A stretch of DNA of 64,000 bases from Sphingomonas sp. (lineage in GTDB: Bacteria; Pseudomonadota; Alphaproteobacteria; Sphingomonadales; Sphingomonadaceae), in contig NZ_JANYGG010000067.1 in assembly GCF_025362505.1 (NCBI RefSeq), positions 1-64,000 of the forward strand, written 5' to 3'. The notes under the pieces are model-generated. The model was given only the letters and a program-made list of their open reading frames with translations, did no database searches and was not told where the DNA came from. Below are positions 6,891 to 46,786 of the stretch, piece by piece (position 1 is the first letter of the stretch; the number at the start of each line of letters is the position of its first letter). A program made the translations under genes and the position numbers.

Positions 6891-7286
6891 ATGGCCCAGC
6901 CGCTGACCAGGATAAACAGGCTGGGATCGAGCGATCCCCGGGCTGTCCGCCAACGCGTCGAGGCGATGGAGAAATTGCTCGAGGGGCTGATCACCATCCC
7001 CGGCACCAACCGCAAGTTCGGGCTCGACGTGATCCTGGACCTGGTGCCCGTCGCCGGCGATGTCGCGGCGGCGGCGCTCGGCAGCTACATGATCTGGGAA
7101 GCGCGCAACCTCGGCATGTCGAAAACCAAGATGGCGCGCATGGCGGGAACGGTCGGGTTCGATTTCCTGCTCGGGCTGATCCCGTTCATCGGCGCGGTGC
7201 CGGATTTCTTTTACCGGTCGAACAGCATCAATCTAAGACGCATCAAGCGCCATCTCGATCGATATCATCCACCGGCGGAGCGATAG
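6891..7286 (+). CDS. DUF4112 domain-containing protein
   Basis: LDVILDLVPVAGDVAAAALGSYMIWEARNLGMSK...GLIPFIGAVPDFFYRSN. Confidence 0.8.
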   Translation: MAQPLTRINRLGSSDPRAVRQRVEAMEKLLEGLITIPGTNRKFGLDVILDLVPVAGDVAAAALGSYMIWEARNLGMSKTKMARMAGTVGFDFLLGLIPFIGAVPDFFYRSNSINLRRIKRHLDRYHPPAER

Positions 7287-7306
7287 CCACGTTGATCGGA
7301 TTCCGG

Positions 7307-8836
7307 TCAATGTCCTGTCTCGCCAACGGCGGACCTGCGCGCGCTCGGTAAAAGTGATCCAGCGATGCGCAATAAATAATAAAATACGGTATTTATAAGG
7401 ACCGGGATAACCAAGGCGGCCAAATAGTCCTTATCGAGGTTGAGTGACATCGCGAAGATAGAAAGCACGAAGGGGAACATAACCCAGTCTCCGTCCGCGA
7501 GTATATTTCGCGTAGCGATCGTCATCGCTCCAAAATAAATACCCAATGGCAGCACCAGCACCAAACTCCACCATCCTGCGTTCCAGTACAAATCTGCAAA
7601 CGTTGTGACGCCGATCTGGTTAACCGATTGAATTCCAAGCAACTGACTGAGAACTAAACCAGAATTCGATGTAATTGGTTTGTCCTGCCATAAAAATCTC
7701 GGAATGAACATATAGCCGGAGTTTTTCAGTTCATCCGATGGCAGCCCATTATCAAACTGAGAGATGACAAACGCTGCCGGCATAACATAGTCGACCCTGG
7801 CTATAGCAGGAATCTCTTCTCCGGGTAACTTCTCTCCGTTCATGTATTCCTGAGCGTAACCCAAACGTTCGCTCAGTGAAGCCTGACCGGACTGTCCGTG
7901 TTCCTGGAGATTTCGGATCCGCGTGTAGTTCGTCACCGGGTTGATGAGTGCGAACAGCGTGACGATCACCGCCGAACCGATGATAATTCGCCGGACGTTG
8001 ATTTTAAACGAAATAATCCCGAGCACTGCGATGAGCGCGGGATATAGTAACACGGACTTGTTGAGGCTGATGAGTGACAGGAAAGTCAGTGCGATCAGAC
8101 CGACCACCACCACGACCTTCGCCAGCAAGTTGCGGTCGAAATCTCGCCCGACAATAAACAGGCCGGTGAACTCAATGGCCTGGGCAACGCTGCCGATGCT
8201 CGAAGGAACTCGCCGGGAAAATTCAAATGTGTCCGCAATTGTCGCCAAGCTCGTAACAAAGAACCCGGCCAGGAATGTGATCAGCCCGACGTTGAAAGAA
8301 TGTGCGCCAAGGCTGGACAGGCGACGCCGCGCTCCTTGGTAAGCGAAAATGCGCAATCCAGCGGCAACGCCGATGAGCAACATGTCCATCCCGGTCAGCC
8401 ACACGAGATTTACCTTGGCCGCGTCGGCGACAGAAGTGACGAACAGATAGTCAATTCGCTCCCTGACGAAGTCGGGTGCGGCCACATCATAGAGGCTGCC
8501 TGCGCCCATCACTACCAGCGCGATCAGTCGCAATCCGAAGAGCGGCGTCAGCAGCGCGTTGCTTTCCTGCCTGACCATCATGAAATTGGCGATCGCTGCC
8601 GTGACCAGGATCGTCAGGGGGGCGATGACGTTCACGGCTGACTCGCCGCCAAGATGATAGAGTGCGGTGCACAGCAGGGTTACCGCCAGCATCACCGCGA
8701 TTTCCGGCATCAGCAGGGCGAGTTGCCGGGCTGCGAAGCTGCCCGGGTCGATGCCCCTGCCTTCACGCGCCGGGAAAGACGCGAACAATGTCGCCGCCGG
8801 ACTAGTCACCGCTGATCTTCGGTGCCCCGACATCAC
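7307..8836 (-). CDS. Multi-pass membrane protein, Wzy/O-antigen-polymerase-like
   Basis: About a dozen hydrophobic segments and a large hydrophilic loop; overlaps the nadA 3' end (alternative GTG start at 8809). Confidence 0.5.
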   Translation of the reverse strand: MMSGHRRSAVTSPAATLFASFPAREGRGIDPGSFAARQLALLMPEIAVMLAVTLLCTALYHLGGESAVNVIAPLTILVTAAIANFMMVRQESNALLTPLFGLRLIALVVMGAGSLYDVAAPDFVRERIDYLFVTSVADAAKVNLVWLTGMDMLLIGVAAGLRIFAYQGARRRLSSLGAHSFNVGLITFLAGFFVTSLATIADTFEFSRRVPSSIGSVAQAIEFTGLFIVGRDFDRNLLAKVVVVVGLIALTFLSLISLNKSVLLYPALIAVLGIISFKINVRRIIIGSAVIVTLFALINPVTNYTRIRNLQEHGQSGQASLSERLGYAQEYMNGEKLPGEEIPAIARVDYVMPAAFVISQFDNGLPSDELKNSGYMFIPRFLWQDKPITSNSGLVLSQLLGIQSVNQIGVTTFADLYWNAGWWSLVLVLPLGIYFGAMTIATRNILADGDWVMFPFVLSIFAMSLNLDKDYLAALVIPVLINTVFYYLLRIAGSLLPSARRSAVGETGH

Positions 8837-9800
8837 CCTGTCCGACCGTCCGCCCGGCCATCTCGAGCATCCGCTCGAGCGGGACGCGGGCGCGGTCCAT
8901 GAGGTCGGTCGACAGCTCGATCCGCGGCCTGAGGTCGCGCAGCGCGTCGTGCAGCTTTTCCAGCGTGTTGAGCGCCATGTACGGGCACATGTTGCAATTG
9001 CAGTTGCCGTCGCCGCCGGGCGCGCCGATGAAGCGCTTGTGCGGCGCAGCTTTCTCCATCTGGTGGATGATGTGCGGCTCGGTCGCGACGATGATCGTCT
9101 GCGCGGGCGAAGTCAGCGCGAAGTCGAGGATCGCCTTGGTCGACCCGACCAGCGTCGCATGGTCGACGATCTGCGGCGGGCATTCGGGGTGCGCGGCGAC
9201 CGGTGCACCCGGATTCTCGGCCATTAGCTTCAGCAGTTCGGTCTCGGAAAAAGCCTGGTGGACGATGCAGATGCCCGGCCACAGCAGCATCTCTCGACCG
9301 GTGCGGCGGGCAAGATAGCCGCCGAGGTGCCGGTCGGGACCGAAGATGATCTTCTGGTCGAGCGGGATCTGCTTGAGGATGATGTCGGCCGACGACGAGG
9401 TGACGATGATGTCACTGAGCGCCTTCACCTCGGCCGAGCAATTGATGTAGGTCAGCGCGATATGGTCCGGGTGGGCCTCGCGGAACGCTTTGAACTGGTC
9501 GGGCGGGCAGCTGTCCTCCAAGCTGCATCCGGCGTCCATGTCGGGCAGGATGACAGTCTTTTGCGGCGACAATATCTTCGCCGTCTCCGCCATGAACCGG
9601 ACCCCGCAGAAGGCGATGACGTCGGCATCGGTCGCCGCGGCCTTGCGCGACAGGTCGAGGCTGTCGCCGACGAAATCGGCGAGGTCCTGCAACTCGGGCC
9701 GCTGGTAATAATGCGCCAGGATGACCGCGTTGCGCTCCTTCTTGAGGCGCGCGATCTCATCGATCAGGTCGGGTCCGCGTAGGCGGGAGTGGACGGTCAC
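8802..9800 (-). CDS. nadA: Quinolinate synthase
   Basis: AHYYQRPELQDLADFVGDSL, FCGVRFMAETAKIL, CNCNMCPYMALNTLEKL; ORF extends to 9899, start at GTG 9800 preferred. Confidence 0.95.
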   Translation of the reverse strand: MTVHSRLRGPDLIDEIARLKKERNAVILAHYYQRPELQDLADFVGDSLDLSRKAAATDADVIAFCGVRFMAETAKILSPQKTVILPDMDAGCSLEDSCPPDQFKAFREAHPDHIALTYINCSAEVKALSDIIVTSSSADIILKQIPLDQKIIFGPDRHLGGYLARRTGREMLLWPGICIVHQAFSETELLKLMAENPGAPVAAHPECPPQIVDHATLVGSTKAILDFALTSPAQTIIVATEPHIIHQMEKAAPHKRFIGAPGGDGNCNCNMCPYMALNTLEKLHDALRDLRPRIELSTDLMDRARVPLERMLEMAGRTVGQGDVGAPKISGD

Positions 9801-9810
9801 TTGATACTCC

Positions 9811-10500
9811 TCAACGGCCCGTGGCCATGACCTCATTATAAGAGCGCGAGCGATCGATGTAAGACGGGTCGTTCGTCGGATCTGAAGCGAATCGTGCAAC
9901 TACTTTGGCGTCAGCGATCCCCGCGGCGCGGAGCGGCAGCGCGAAACTATGCTCGACGGCTTGACGCGCCGCCTCGCGGGCGAGCCGCATCGGGGTTGCG
10001 GCCTGCGCCTGTTTGCGGAGGTCGGCGACGGCCTTAGAACGGTTCGCGTCATCGAGCTGGGTGCGGCTGTCGGTCAGCGCGCCGAGCACGCCACCGCTGC
10101 CGTATTCGCGCGCCGCCGCCAGATCGACCTCGGGGCCGGCGATCTCGATCTCGGGGAGCCTGACCGACAGGGTTTTCGTGTCGTCGTCCCACGTCACGTC
10201 GCGCTCGCCGAGCTTGGCAAGGTCGAGCTCGTAGCGCACGTCGCCGGGGAGGACGAGCGTCCGCTCCGAGGTGAACATCAGCTGCGACTGCTTCGACGTA
10301 ACGACCGACACATAGCGCGCGACGAACGGCACCAGCCGGTTCTGCGCGCGCATCGATTCGAGGCTGGCGCGAGCGATGCTCGTCACGTCGCCGCCGAACA
10401 GCTTGCGCTTGAGGTCGAGCCCACCGCCGACGAGCAGGCCGACGACCAGCGCGGCAAGGATCGCGACGATCGCGATGGGGTTCAGGGGGCGGCGGTCCAT
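9811..10500 (-). CDS. DUF4230 domain-containing protein, membrane anchored
   Basis: N-terminal TM and DUF4230-like sequence (LVPFVARYVSVVTSKQSQLMFTSERTLVLPGDVRYELDLAKL). Confidence 0.75.
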   Translation of the reverse strand: MDRRPLNPIAIVAILAALVVGLLVGGGLDLKRKLFGGDVTSIARASLESMRAQNRLVPFVARYVSVVTSKQSQLMFTSERTLVLPGDVRYELDLAKLGERDVTWDDDTKTLSVRLPEIEIAGPEVDLAAAREYGSGGVLGALTDSRTQLDDANRSKAVADLRKQAQAATPMRLAREAARQAVEHSFALPLRAAGIADAKVVARFASDPTNDPSYIDRSRSYNEVMATGR

Positions 10501-44020: not shown

Positions 44021-45364
44021 CTACTGGTTGTTCTGGCGATTGAGGAAGCGCGGGATGTCGATCGGATCGCGGCGGAAGCCGGGGGCTTCTCCCTCGTCGA
44101 TTTGCGCCTTGGGCGCGCCGCGAGCGATGTTCGACATGCGCTCGAACAAGGTGCCGCTTTCACGCTTGGCCTCGCCGTCGTCGGCCGGTGGCGCAATCGG
44201 CGCGGCGCCGACCGGGCTGGTCAGGATGTCGTCGCTGTCGAGCAGCAGTTCGTCGTCGCCGGCTTCGTCGGTCAGATCGAGCGGCGCCTCGTCGGCGACA
44301 GGCGGCTTGGCGGCAGCGACGACCGACGCCGGAGCGGCGGCCGGCGCGCGGCTTGTCGGGAAGGAGAACACCTTGCCCGGCGCGGGCGCGGCTTGGGCGT
44401 CGGCCTCGATCCCGGTGGCGACGACCGAGACGCGGATGCGGCCTTCCATGTTATTGTTGAACGCCGACCCCCAGATGATGTTGGCGTCGGGGTCGACCAG
44501 TTCCTTGATGTGGCTGGCGGCCTCGTCGACCTCCATCAGACGCATGTCCTCGCCGCCGGTGATCGAGATGATGACGCCCTTGGCACCCTTCATCGAGACG
44601 CCGTCGAGCAGCGGGTTCGAGATCGCCTTTTCGGCCGCCTCGATCGCGCGATTGTCGCCCGACGCCTCGCCGGTGCCCATCATTGCCTTGCCCATCTCGC
44701 CCATCACCGAGCGGACGTCGGCGAAGTCGAGGTTGATGAGGCCCGGCATGACCATCAGGTCGGTGATCCCGCGCACGCCCTGCTGGAGCACTTCGTCGGC
44801 CATTTCGAACGCCTGCTTGAAGGTCGTGTCGGCATTGGCAAGGCGGAACAGGTTCTGGTTTGGGATGACAATCAGCGTGTCGACATGCTTCTGCAGTTCC
44901 TCGATCCCGGCGTCGGCCGCGCGGCCGCGGCGCGAGCCTTCGAACGCGAACGGCTTGGTCACCACGCCGACGGTCAGGATGCCGCGATCACGCGCGGCCT
45001 TGGCGATGACCGGGGCAGCACCGGTGCCGGTGCCCCCGCCCATGCCCGCGGCGATGAAGCACATGTGCGCGCCGTCCAGTGCGCGTTCGATGTCCTCGAG
45101 CGTCTCTTCGGCGGCGGCGCGGCCGATCTCGGGCCGCGACCCGGCGCCGAGGCCCTGGGTAATCTTGAGGCCAAGCTGGATGCGGCGGTCGGCGGCGCTG
45201 GCATTGAGCGCCTGCGCGTCGGTGTTGGCGACGAGGAACTCGACCCCCTGCACGTCCGACTTGATCATGTTGGCGATGGCGTTGCCGCCGGCTCCGCCGA
45301 CGCCGATCACGGTGATCCGCGGACGAAGCTCGTCGACTTCCGGTCGGATGAAATCGATGCTCAT
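44021..45364 (-). CDS. ftsZ: Cell division protein FtsZ
   Basis: [34 protein letters not shown]. Confidence 0.98.
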
Positions 45365-45491
45365 AGGATCAACCCCCAAATTGCCAGCACATTGAACTCT
45401 GGGCGGGAATCTTGCACTAACCGACTCCCACCCCCAAGCGAAAAATGGTCCGCGACGCAAAAAAGATAAGCAACTGATTCATTATGAGACA

Positions 45492-45535
45492 TTAGTGAGT
45501 CCGCGATGCATCACTGGTGAGTCCCGGCTGCATCA
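45492..45535. repeat. Two imperfect 22-bp tandem repeats upstream of ftsZ, each carrying GAGTC
   Basis: TTAGTGAGTCCGCGATGCATCA / CTGGTGAGTCCCGGCTGCATCA, 17/22 identical. Confidence 0.8.
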
Positions 45536-46786
45536 ATAGCCCTGCTTGAGCGCGCTGATCAGCTTGCCGACCAGGCCGGTCGCGGGCCTTTTCTCGCGCA
45601 TGCCGACCGCGATGTCGCGGATGTCACCGGTGCCGCTGGCAGCAAGGTTGGCAAGGCCGACGAGTGTCGCGAAGGCCGGACCGCTGTGCGCTTCAGGCAG
45701 CCCGGTAATCCCGCGCGGCCGCCCGACCCGGACCGCACGGCCGAGCACGCCCTGCATATAGTCGGCGATGTTCTTGAGCTCGGACCCGCCGCCGGTCACC
45801 ACCACCTGGCGCCCGACCGGGCCGGTAAAGCCCAATGCCTTCAGGGCGAGCTCGATCTCGCCGGTCAGCGTCTCGATCCGCGCGCGGATGACGGTCATCA
45901 GCTGCGCCCGGGTCAGCCGCAGCGGCTCGGCATGGTCGTCGGAACCGACCGAGCGCGCGTCGATCATCTCGTGATTGTCGCGTGGGGACGTCATCGCCGA
46001 TCCGTAAAAGGTCTTGAGCCGCTCGGCGTCGCGCCGCTGGATGCCGAAGGCGCAGGCGATGTCGTCGGTGATGTCCCGCGCGCCAAGCTCGATCGAGCGC
46101 AGCCCGACGAGCATTCCGCCAAGGTGGAGCGAGACGTTGGTCACATCGGCGCCCAGTTCGATCAGCGCGACGCCGATCTCGCGCTCTTCCTCGGTCAGGC
46201 AGGCGACCGCCGCGGCGACGGGGGAGGCGATGATCGCGTTGACGCCAAGGTGCGCCGAGCGAATGACATAGTCGATGTTCTTCAAGGGCGCGGCGTCGGC
46301 GGCAACGACGTGGATGTCGACCCCCAGCCGGTCGGCGAACAGCCCGATCGGCTGCTTGACGCCCTGGTTGCGGTCAATCGTGAACAGCGCGGGATGGGCG
46401 TGGAGCACGAGCTGGCCGGTGCGGTCGATGGCGTTGCGGCCGGCGACGAGCAATTGATCGATGTCGGCCTGCTCGACCTGATGGCCGCCGAGCTCGACCT
46501 CGACATTGGCGAGATCGCTGATCAGCGACTTGGCCCCGAAACTCGCCCAGACGTCGTCGACCGTCACGCCCGACATGCGCTCGGCGAGCTCGACCGCCTC
46601 GCGCACCGCGACTTCGCTCGCCTCCATGTCGGTGATGTAGCCGCGCTTGACCCCGCGGCTTTCGCGCTGGCCGGTGCCGAGCACGCGCAGCCGTCCGTCG
46701 GGATCGCGCGTCACGATCATCGCGCTGACCTTCGACGAGCCGATGTCGAGCGCGGTAAACAGGGGCTGGTCGTCGGTCGCGGACAA
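45533..46786 (-). CDS. ftsA: Cell division protein FtsA
   Basis: FTALDIGSSKVSAMIV, VVVTGGGSELKNIADYM. Confidence 0.97.
   Translation of the reverse strand: MSATDDQPLFTALDIGSSKVSAMIVTRDPDGRLRVLGTGQRESRGVKRGYITDMEASEVAVREAVELAERMSGVTVDDVWASFGAKSLISDLANVEVELGGHQVEQADIDQLLVAGRNAIDRTGQLVLHAHPALFTIDRNQGVKQPIGLFADRLGVDIHVVAADAAPLKNIDYVIRSAHLGVNAIIASPVAAAVACLTEEEREIGVALIELGADVTNVSLHLGGMLVGLRSIELGARDITDDIACAFGIQRRDAERLKTFYGSAMTSPRDNHEMIDARSVGSDDHAEPLRLTRAQLMTVIRARIETLTGEIELALKALGFTGPVGRQVVVTGGGSELKNIADYMQGVLGRAVRVGRPRGITGLPEAHSGPAFATLVGLANLAASGTGDIRDIAVGMREKRPATGLVGKLISALKQGY

Follow-up and report, generated by a model that had tools for sequence, protein, structure and literature searches.

A dense GANTC cluster conserved upstream of ftsZ in Sphingomicrobium points to a probable CcrM-methylation-responsive promoter

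Why does the short gap between ftsA and ftsZ in this sphingomonad hold so many GANTC sites, and could they couple division to DNA methylation by CcrM? In fast-growing Caulobacter, the essentiality of CcrM is explained by its control of ftsZ. In the window (the whole stretch of DNA analysed, 64,000 nucleotides), ftsZ (44021..45364, (-) strand, 447 AA; its translation matches TIGR00065 with E 1.5e-125) starts with an ATG at 45364-45362, and ftsA (45533..46786, (-) strand, 417 AA; TIGR01174, E 1.7e-88) ends with a stop codon at 45533-45535. The 168 bp that separate them (45365..45532, (-) strand) form the inferred ftsZ promoter region and contain the cluster. The initial annotation placed GANTC at 45407, 45423, 45476, 45497 and 45519, positions that proved exact on recount; all five lie inside the gap, at -47, -63, -116, -137 and -159 from the ftsZ ATG. 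No other part of the window is as rich in GANTC: a scan found at most three sites in any other 170-bp stretch. The window as a whole carries 99 GANTC in 64 kb compared with 336 in dinucleotide shuffles, hence the pentamer is avoided across it. Fewer than one site had been expected by chance in the gap, an estimate that agrees with our two values: 0.25 from the window's own background rate, and a mean of 0.73 in 20,000 dinucleotide shuffles of the gap, in which the probability of five or more sites is about 5e-5. The GC content of the gap is about 51%. The lowest-GC stretch of the window is at 7250-8250 (48-56%), where it overlaps a 509-AA open reading frame (7307-8836, (-) strand), and is possibly acquired DNA.

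The regions upstream of ftsZ were compared in 53 genomes of the same genus (taken to be Sphingomicrobium), with two outgroup samples, 77 further loci mostly from Sphingomonadales and 29 genomes across Alphaproteobacteria. The GANTC density noted in the window is kept in close relatives: all 53 same-genus genomes have three to six sites within 170 bp upstream of ftsZ (mean 4.28; three sites in 9 genomes, four in 25, five in 14 and six in 5), a total of 227 compared with 45 +/- 6.5 in shuffles. Adjoining 170-bp segments hold on average 0.11-0.30 GANTC and the 150 bp downstream of ftsZ, a non-coding control, 0.37, while the most frequent of 23 composition-matched control pentamers reaches 0.96 per ftsZ upstream sequence in the 53 genomes. 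Redundancy is ruled out as the cause, since the mean is still 4.31 among the 35 representatives of a non-redundant set, obtained by clustering at 75% identity, whose alignment has a mean pairwise identity of 51%. The cluster belongs to ftsZ, as it stays with this gene where ftsA is displaced: in the 20 genomes whose flank shows ftsA at a greater distance or not at all, the mean is 4.25, and in several of them an unrelated gene lies between ftsA and ftsZ with the cluster remaining at ftsZ. Unrelated genes that separate ftsA from ftsZ, or replace ftsA upstream (loci L086, L088, L092, L095, L118, L121 and L122), are transporter-like (MFS-type or ZIP-type, as read from their translations), oxidoreductase-like and others. 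The 77 other loci have on average 1.06 GANTC, mostly 0-2 and none in 22 of them, and across the class 27 of the 29 genomes have 0 or 1 upstream of ftsZ. These comparisons indicate that the cluster is under selection and that, among the lineages sampled, its density is a genus-level feature and not a sphingomonad-wide one.

The rank of ftsZ among all genes was assessed in a closed relative, G024 (2.46 Mb, 65% GC), with crude gene calls made in this analysis. GANTC is half as frequent in this genome as its base composition would predict, and is denser in intergenic (2.5 per kb) than in genic DNA (1.6 per kb). When its 2298 genes are ranked for upstream GANTC, ccrM comes first with six sites and ftsZ ties for second place with four, together with genes that include an MreB-like gene and one encoding a CckA-like kinase. 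G024 has two other very dense clusters: one, in L200 (about 9600-9880), precedes a salicylyl-CoA hydroxylase-like gene, and the other, in L215 (about 1980-2300), lies beside maf, with DnaA-box-like words. The maf region may be near the replication origin; the origin position derived from GC skew differs from that of the maf cluster by about 230 kb.

The genome from which the window comes has ccrM, together with gcrA, as judged by profile and structure matches. CcrM is encoded full-length, its closest solved structure being Caulobacter CcrM (6pbd, E 9e-156); its RAMA domain scores over the cut-off and its NF050803 match reaches 611 bits, below the strict cut-off of 830. The GcrA orthologue matches PF07750 over the cut-off in two stretches, as well as structures 5yiu and 5yix, and has both the DNA-binding and the sigma-interacting domains. 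The ccrM gene of this genome (L264, contig C17, 10433-11581, (-) strand) itself carries seven GANTC in the 190 bp or so that precede its start, a pattern that suggests methylation feedback on ccrM. The initial annotation had proposed methylation-dependent timing of ftsZ, with a 22-bp repeat unit as a possible protein-binding site. By comparison, methylation-dependent control as such is well supported, because the density is conserved and because the genome has both ccrM and gcrA.

The genus alignment contains a conserved core-promoter-like block, TTTTCGCTTGG-N~20-CAAnGATTC, in which CAAnGATTC and TTTTCGCTTGG constitute a predicted core promoter, plus a distal pair of sites. In the window all these elements are on the (-) strand. 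The GANTC at -47 (45407..45411) reads GATTC on the ftsZ sense strand and is of the -48 type, kept in 34 of 35 representatives; it overlaps a predicted -10-like element, CAAGAT (45409..45414), proposed from its position and its conservation within the CAAnGATTC block. The site at -63 (45423..45427, GAGTC) is of the -66 type, kept in 25/35, and lies in the predicted -35/-10 spacer. The TTTTTCGCTTGG block (45434..45445), the predicted -35 region, belongs to the best-conserved columns of the alignment, and the TTGGGG in it sits 17 bp from CAAGAT. An additional -57-type site, found in 20 of the 35 representatives, is absent from the window. Further from ftsZ, the distal conserved element TGTCTCATAATGAATCA (45475..45491; consensus GTCCCATAATGAATCA) combines the GANTC at -116, found in a TGAATC context in 18/18 aligned copies, with a -10-like CATAAT. 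Beyond it lie two GACTC sites, one at -137 (45497..45501) in the inner copy of the repeat, the distal GACTC/GAGTC being kept in 30/35, and one at -159 (45519..45523) in the outer copy, common to the nearest relative, L085, and not widely kept. Thus the -48, -66 and -116 types and the distal GAGTC/GACTC are conserved across the genus, and the -159 site is lineage-specific. The distal pair around GTCCCATAATGAATCA may be a second promoter or an accessory site. A scan of the region for the sigma70 consensus gave no match, and a model of -35/-10 elements, trained with the upstream regions of G024, was discarded as it barely separated the two strands.

The variable base of these sites is informative in two ways. 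In the spacer site (-66 type), N is C, G or A among relatives around a constant GA..TC, as expected if the methylase target, and not one fixed sequence, is selected. At several sites N hardly changes (48/50 proximal sites read GATTC), which argues that sequence constraints beyond methylation also act. Other conserved words are present in the region. A GTTCAACGCGTTG-like block, downstream of the promoter block and upstream of the ribosome-binding site, is degenerate in the window (45386-45399); in several relatives it includes a perfect palindrome, CAACGCGTTG. One branch of the genus (L109, L111, L112, L114, L116 and L119) has as its distal module an inverted repeat GTCCC/GGGAC, its arms a few bases apart, placed immediately before GAGTC, which is a possible protein site or hairpin.

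The 22-bp imperfect tandem repeat described at the distal end of the gap is real, with 17/22 identical positions, although its frame is shifted by 2 bp (45490..45533, (-) strand, instead of 45492-45535). Its copies, 45490-45511 and 45512-45533, carry one GANTC each, and its score is above that of every one of 3000 mononucleotide shuffles at period 22, and of every one of 400 at any period of 12-40. A genome search found the unit at one place only. The tandem pair is common to L085 (18/22) and absent from L089-L091 (8-10/22), which rules it out as a conserved unit. Since L085 is the one relative, among those checked, that shares the pair, the repeat is a duplication of recent date, through which one further GANTC was gained. 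The idea that the repeat unit is a functional protein-binding site is unsupported, the pair being limited, among the relatives checked, to the window lineage and L085.

How, then, might the sites act? The Caulobacter precedent comprises direct activation of ftsZ by CcrM methylation (PMC3973325), recruitment of RNA polymerase by GcrA on binding to methylated GANTC (PMC3667746), and a shared, defined activation time of those start sites in which a GANTC falls between -10 and -35 (PMC4287350). We consider it likely that the gap is a CcrM-methylation-responsive ftsZ promoter, read probably by GcrA with sigma70, in a scheme whose promoter positions, methylation, activation rather than repression, and timing we infer. 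CcrM would methylate the promoter sites, which would have been selected as methylation marks; replication would leave them hemimethylated, and late in the cycle CcrM would bring back full methylation. Methylation of the two or three core-promoter sites, in the predicted spacer and -10, would raise ftsZ transcription, the likeliest cause being recognition of m6A at these core sites by GcrA in complex with sigma70-RNA polymerase, and the distal pair may act as a second such promoter or as an accessory site. FtsZ output would then track replication and methylation state, and division would probably be tied to DNA methylation as in Caulobacter.

For GcrA as the reader protein, the arguments are about evenly balanced. 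YGAKTCK, the extended GcrA motif of Caulobacter, is matched by 0 of 5 sites in the window and is not enriched at ftsZ (20% of the genus cluster sites fit it, compared with 31% of GANTC sites across G024). At ftsZ the heptamer TGATTCA/TGAATCA dominates (65/227 sites, in sequences related by descent), and the heptamers enriched in intergenic regions of G024 include the GcrA-type TGATTCG. The absence or rarity of YGAKTCK here lowers the probability of a GcrA reading, yet this reading is still viable because the extended motif is not needed by Brevundimonas GcrA (PMC7987155). The favoured explanation as a whole is weakened by this misfit, by the near-fixed N, by the observation that loss of CcrM hardly affects ftsZ in Agrobacterium (PMC11514494), and by a bioinformatic study in which GcrA control of division genes is not conserved outside Caulobacterales (PMC7987155).

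The main rival is a direct effect of methylation without GcrA, in which m6A in the predicted -10 (AAG-mA-TTC) and in the spacer alters melting or blocks a repressor. It is favoured by the overlap of the best-kept site (34/35) with the predicted -10, by the lack of YGAKTCK enrichment at ftsZ and by the finding that only 31% of the GcrA-bound cell-cycle start sites of Caulobacter have a GANTC within 50 bp (PMC4287350); as GcrA is intact in this genome and may, as in Brevundimonas (PMC7987155), need no extended motif, we regard such a direct effect as rather improbable. It is quite unlikely that the sites are parts of a motif for another regulator (TGATTCA/TGAATCA, also TGAGTC), GANTC being incidental: the frequency of this heptamer and the near-fixed N at several positions would fit, but the spacer N varies while GA..TC is kept, the different heptamers have only GANTC in common, and the region upstream of ccrM is equally GANTC-dense.

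A role in replication or chromosome organisation, with hemimethylation as a mark and ftsZ merely as the location, would be in keeping with the cluster beside maf in G024, in a region maybe near the origin. We hold it to be very improbable, as the ftsZ cluster is fixed relative to the start codon and to the -35/-10-like blocks and remains with ftsZ after displacement of ftsA. Finally, the gap could simply be intergenic DNA that is richer in AT than its GC-rich genome, a composition that brings the expectation up to 0.73. This chance reading is refuted by the conservation of the cluster and has practically no probability left, the excess persisting against composition-matched shuffles, 23 pentamers, 35 non-redundant relatives and the downstream non-coding control.

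If methylation-responsive control of ftsZ is the preferred reading, it remains to place it beside other cell-cycle inputs. No CtrA site (TTAA-N7-TTAA) was found in the 53 genus and 77 other ftsZ upstream regions. The DnaA-type box TGTGGANAA is absent from the ftsA-ftsZ gap of the window, and is found upstream of ftsZ in 4/53 Sphingomicrobium genomes versus 24/77 other loci. In the latter (L019-L077) it lies mostly 93-111 bp upstream of ftsZ, often with one GANTC 20-35 bp nearer the gene, and it occurs in none of six flanking 200-bp segments. This placement near -100 in other Sphingomonadales is akin to the DnaA-regulated ftsZ promoter of Caulobacter, which has two DnaA boxes (PMC3193534), a likeness from which the window and most of Sphingomicrobium depart. 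Plausibly, a DnaA-box design gave way to a GANTC-dense one in the history of this genus. More tentatively, and at a low probability, ftsZ could be a multi-mark methylation switch, in which several CcrM sites, one of them within the -10, would all have to be in the proper state at the same time, and which replaced a DnaA-box-plus-single-GANTC design. Were this true, the response would be sharper and more replication-coupled than that of single-site Caulobacter promoters, and the DnaA-box-plus-single-GANTC design would be the older one, retained in other Sphingomonadales.

CcrM control of ftsZ had seemed weak or absent outside Caulobacter (PMC11514494, PMC7987155), and here some of the densest CcrM-site clusters are at ccrM and ftsZ, in a genus of another order than Caulobacter. 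This suggests an independent strengthening of methylation control over division in this genus. Surveys built on the Caulobacter YGAKTCK motif could overlook such promoters. Cultured Sphingomicrobium species with closed genomes make the promoter model open to direct test; one cultured species, S. lutaoense, has three GANTC in its ftsZ region.

The arrangement has several known counterparts. The region upstream of ctrA in Sphingomonadales, with up to five GANTC in 300 bp, shows the same type of clustering in the same order, whereas here the gene is ftsZ, the density is higher and the feature is confined to one genus among those sampled (PMC8116508). The GcrA-dependent Caulobacter promoters of mipZ, with two juxtaposed GANTC, and ctrA P1 likewise have sites near -35/-10 (predicted here) and close GANTC pairs (PMC3667746), but ftsZ has more sites here and the dominant context is TGATTCA rather than TGATTCG. 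The closest parallel is the CcrM-activated ftsZ promoter of Caulobacter crescentus: both are alphaproteobacterial ftsZ genes in genomes with CcrM and GcrA, and both carry GANTC in a promoter region where relatives keep it too (PMC3973325, PMC11514494). Unlike the Caulobacter promoter, the one predicted here has no full CtrA site and no YGAKTCK enrichment, and carries three to six sites, at least two of them in or beside the predicted core promoter, with a second, distal pair. We regard this genus-wide conserved, methylation-site-dense ftsZ promoter as probably an unusually dense variant of Caulobacter-type control.
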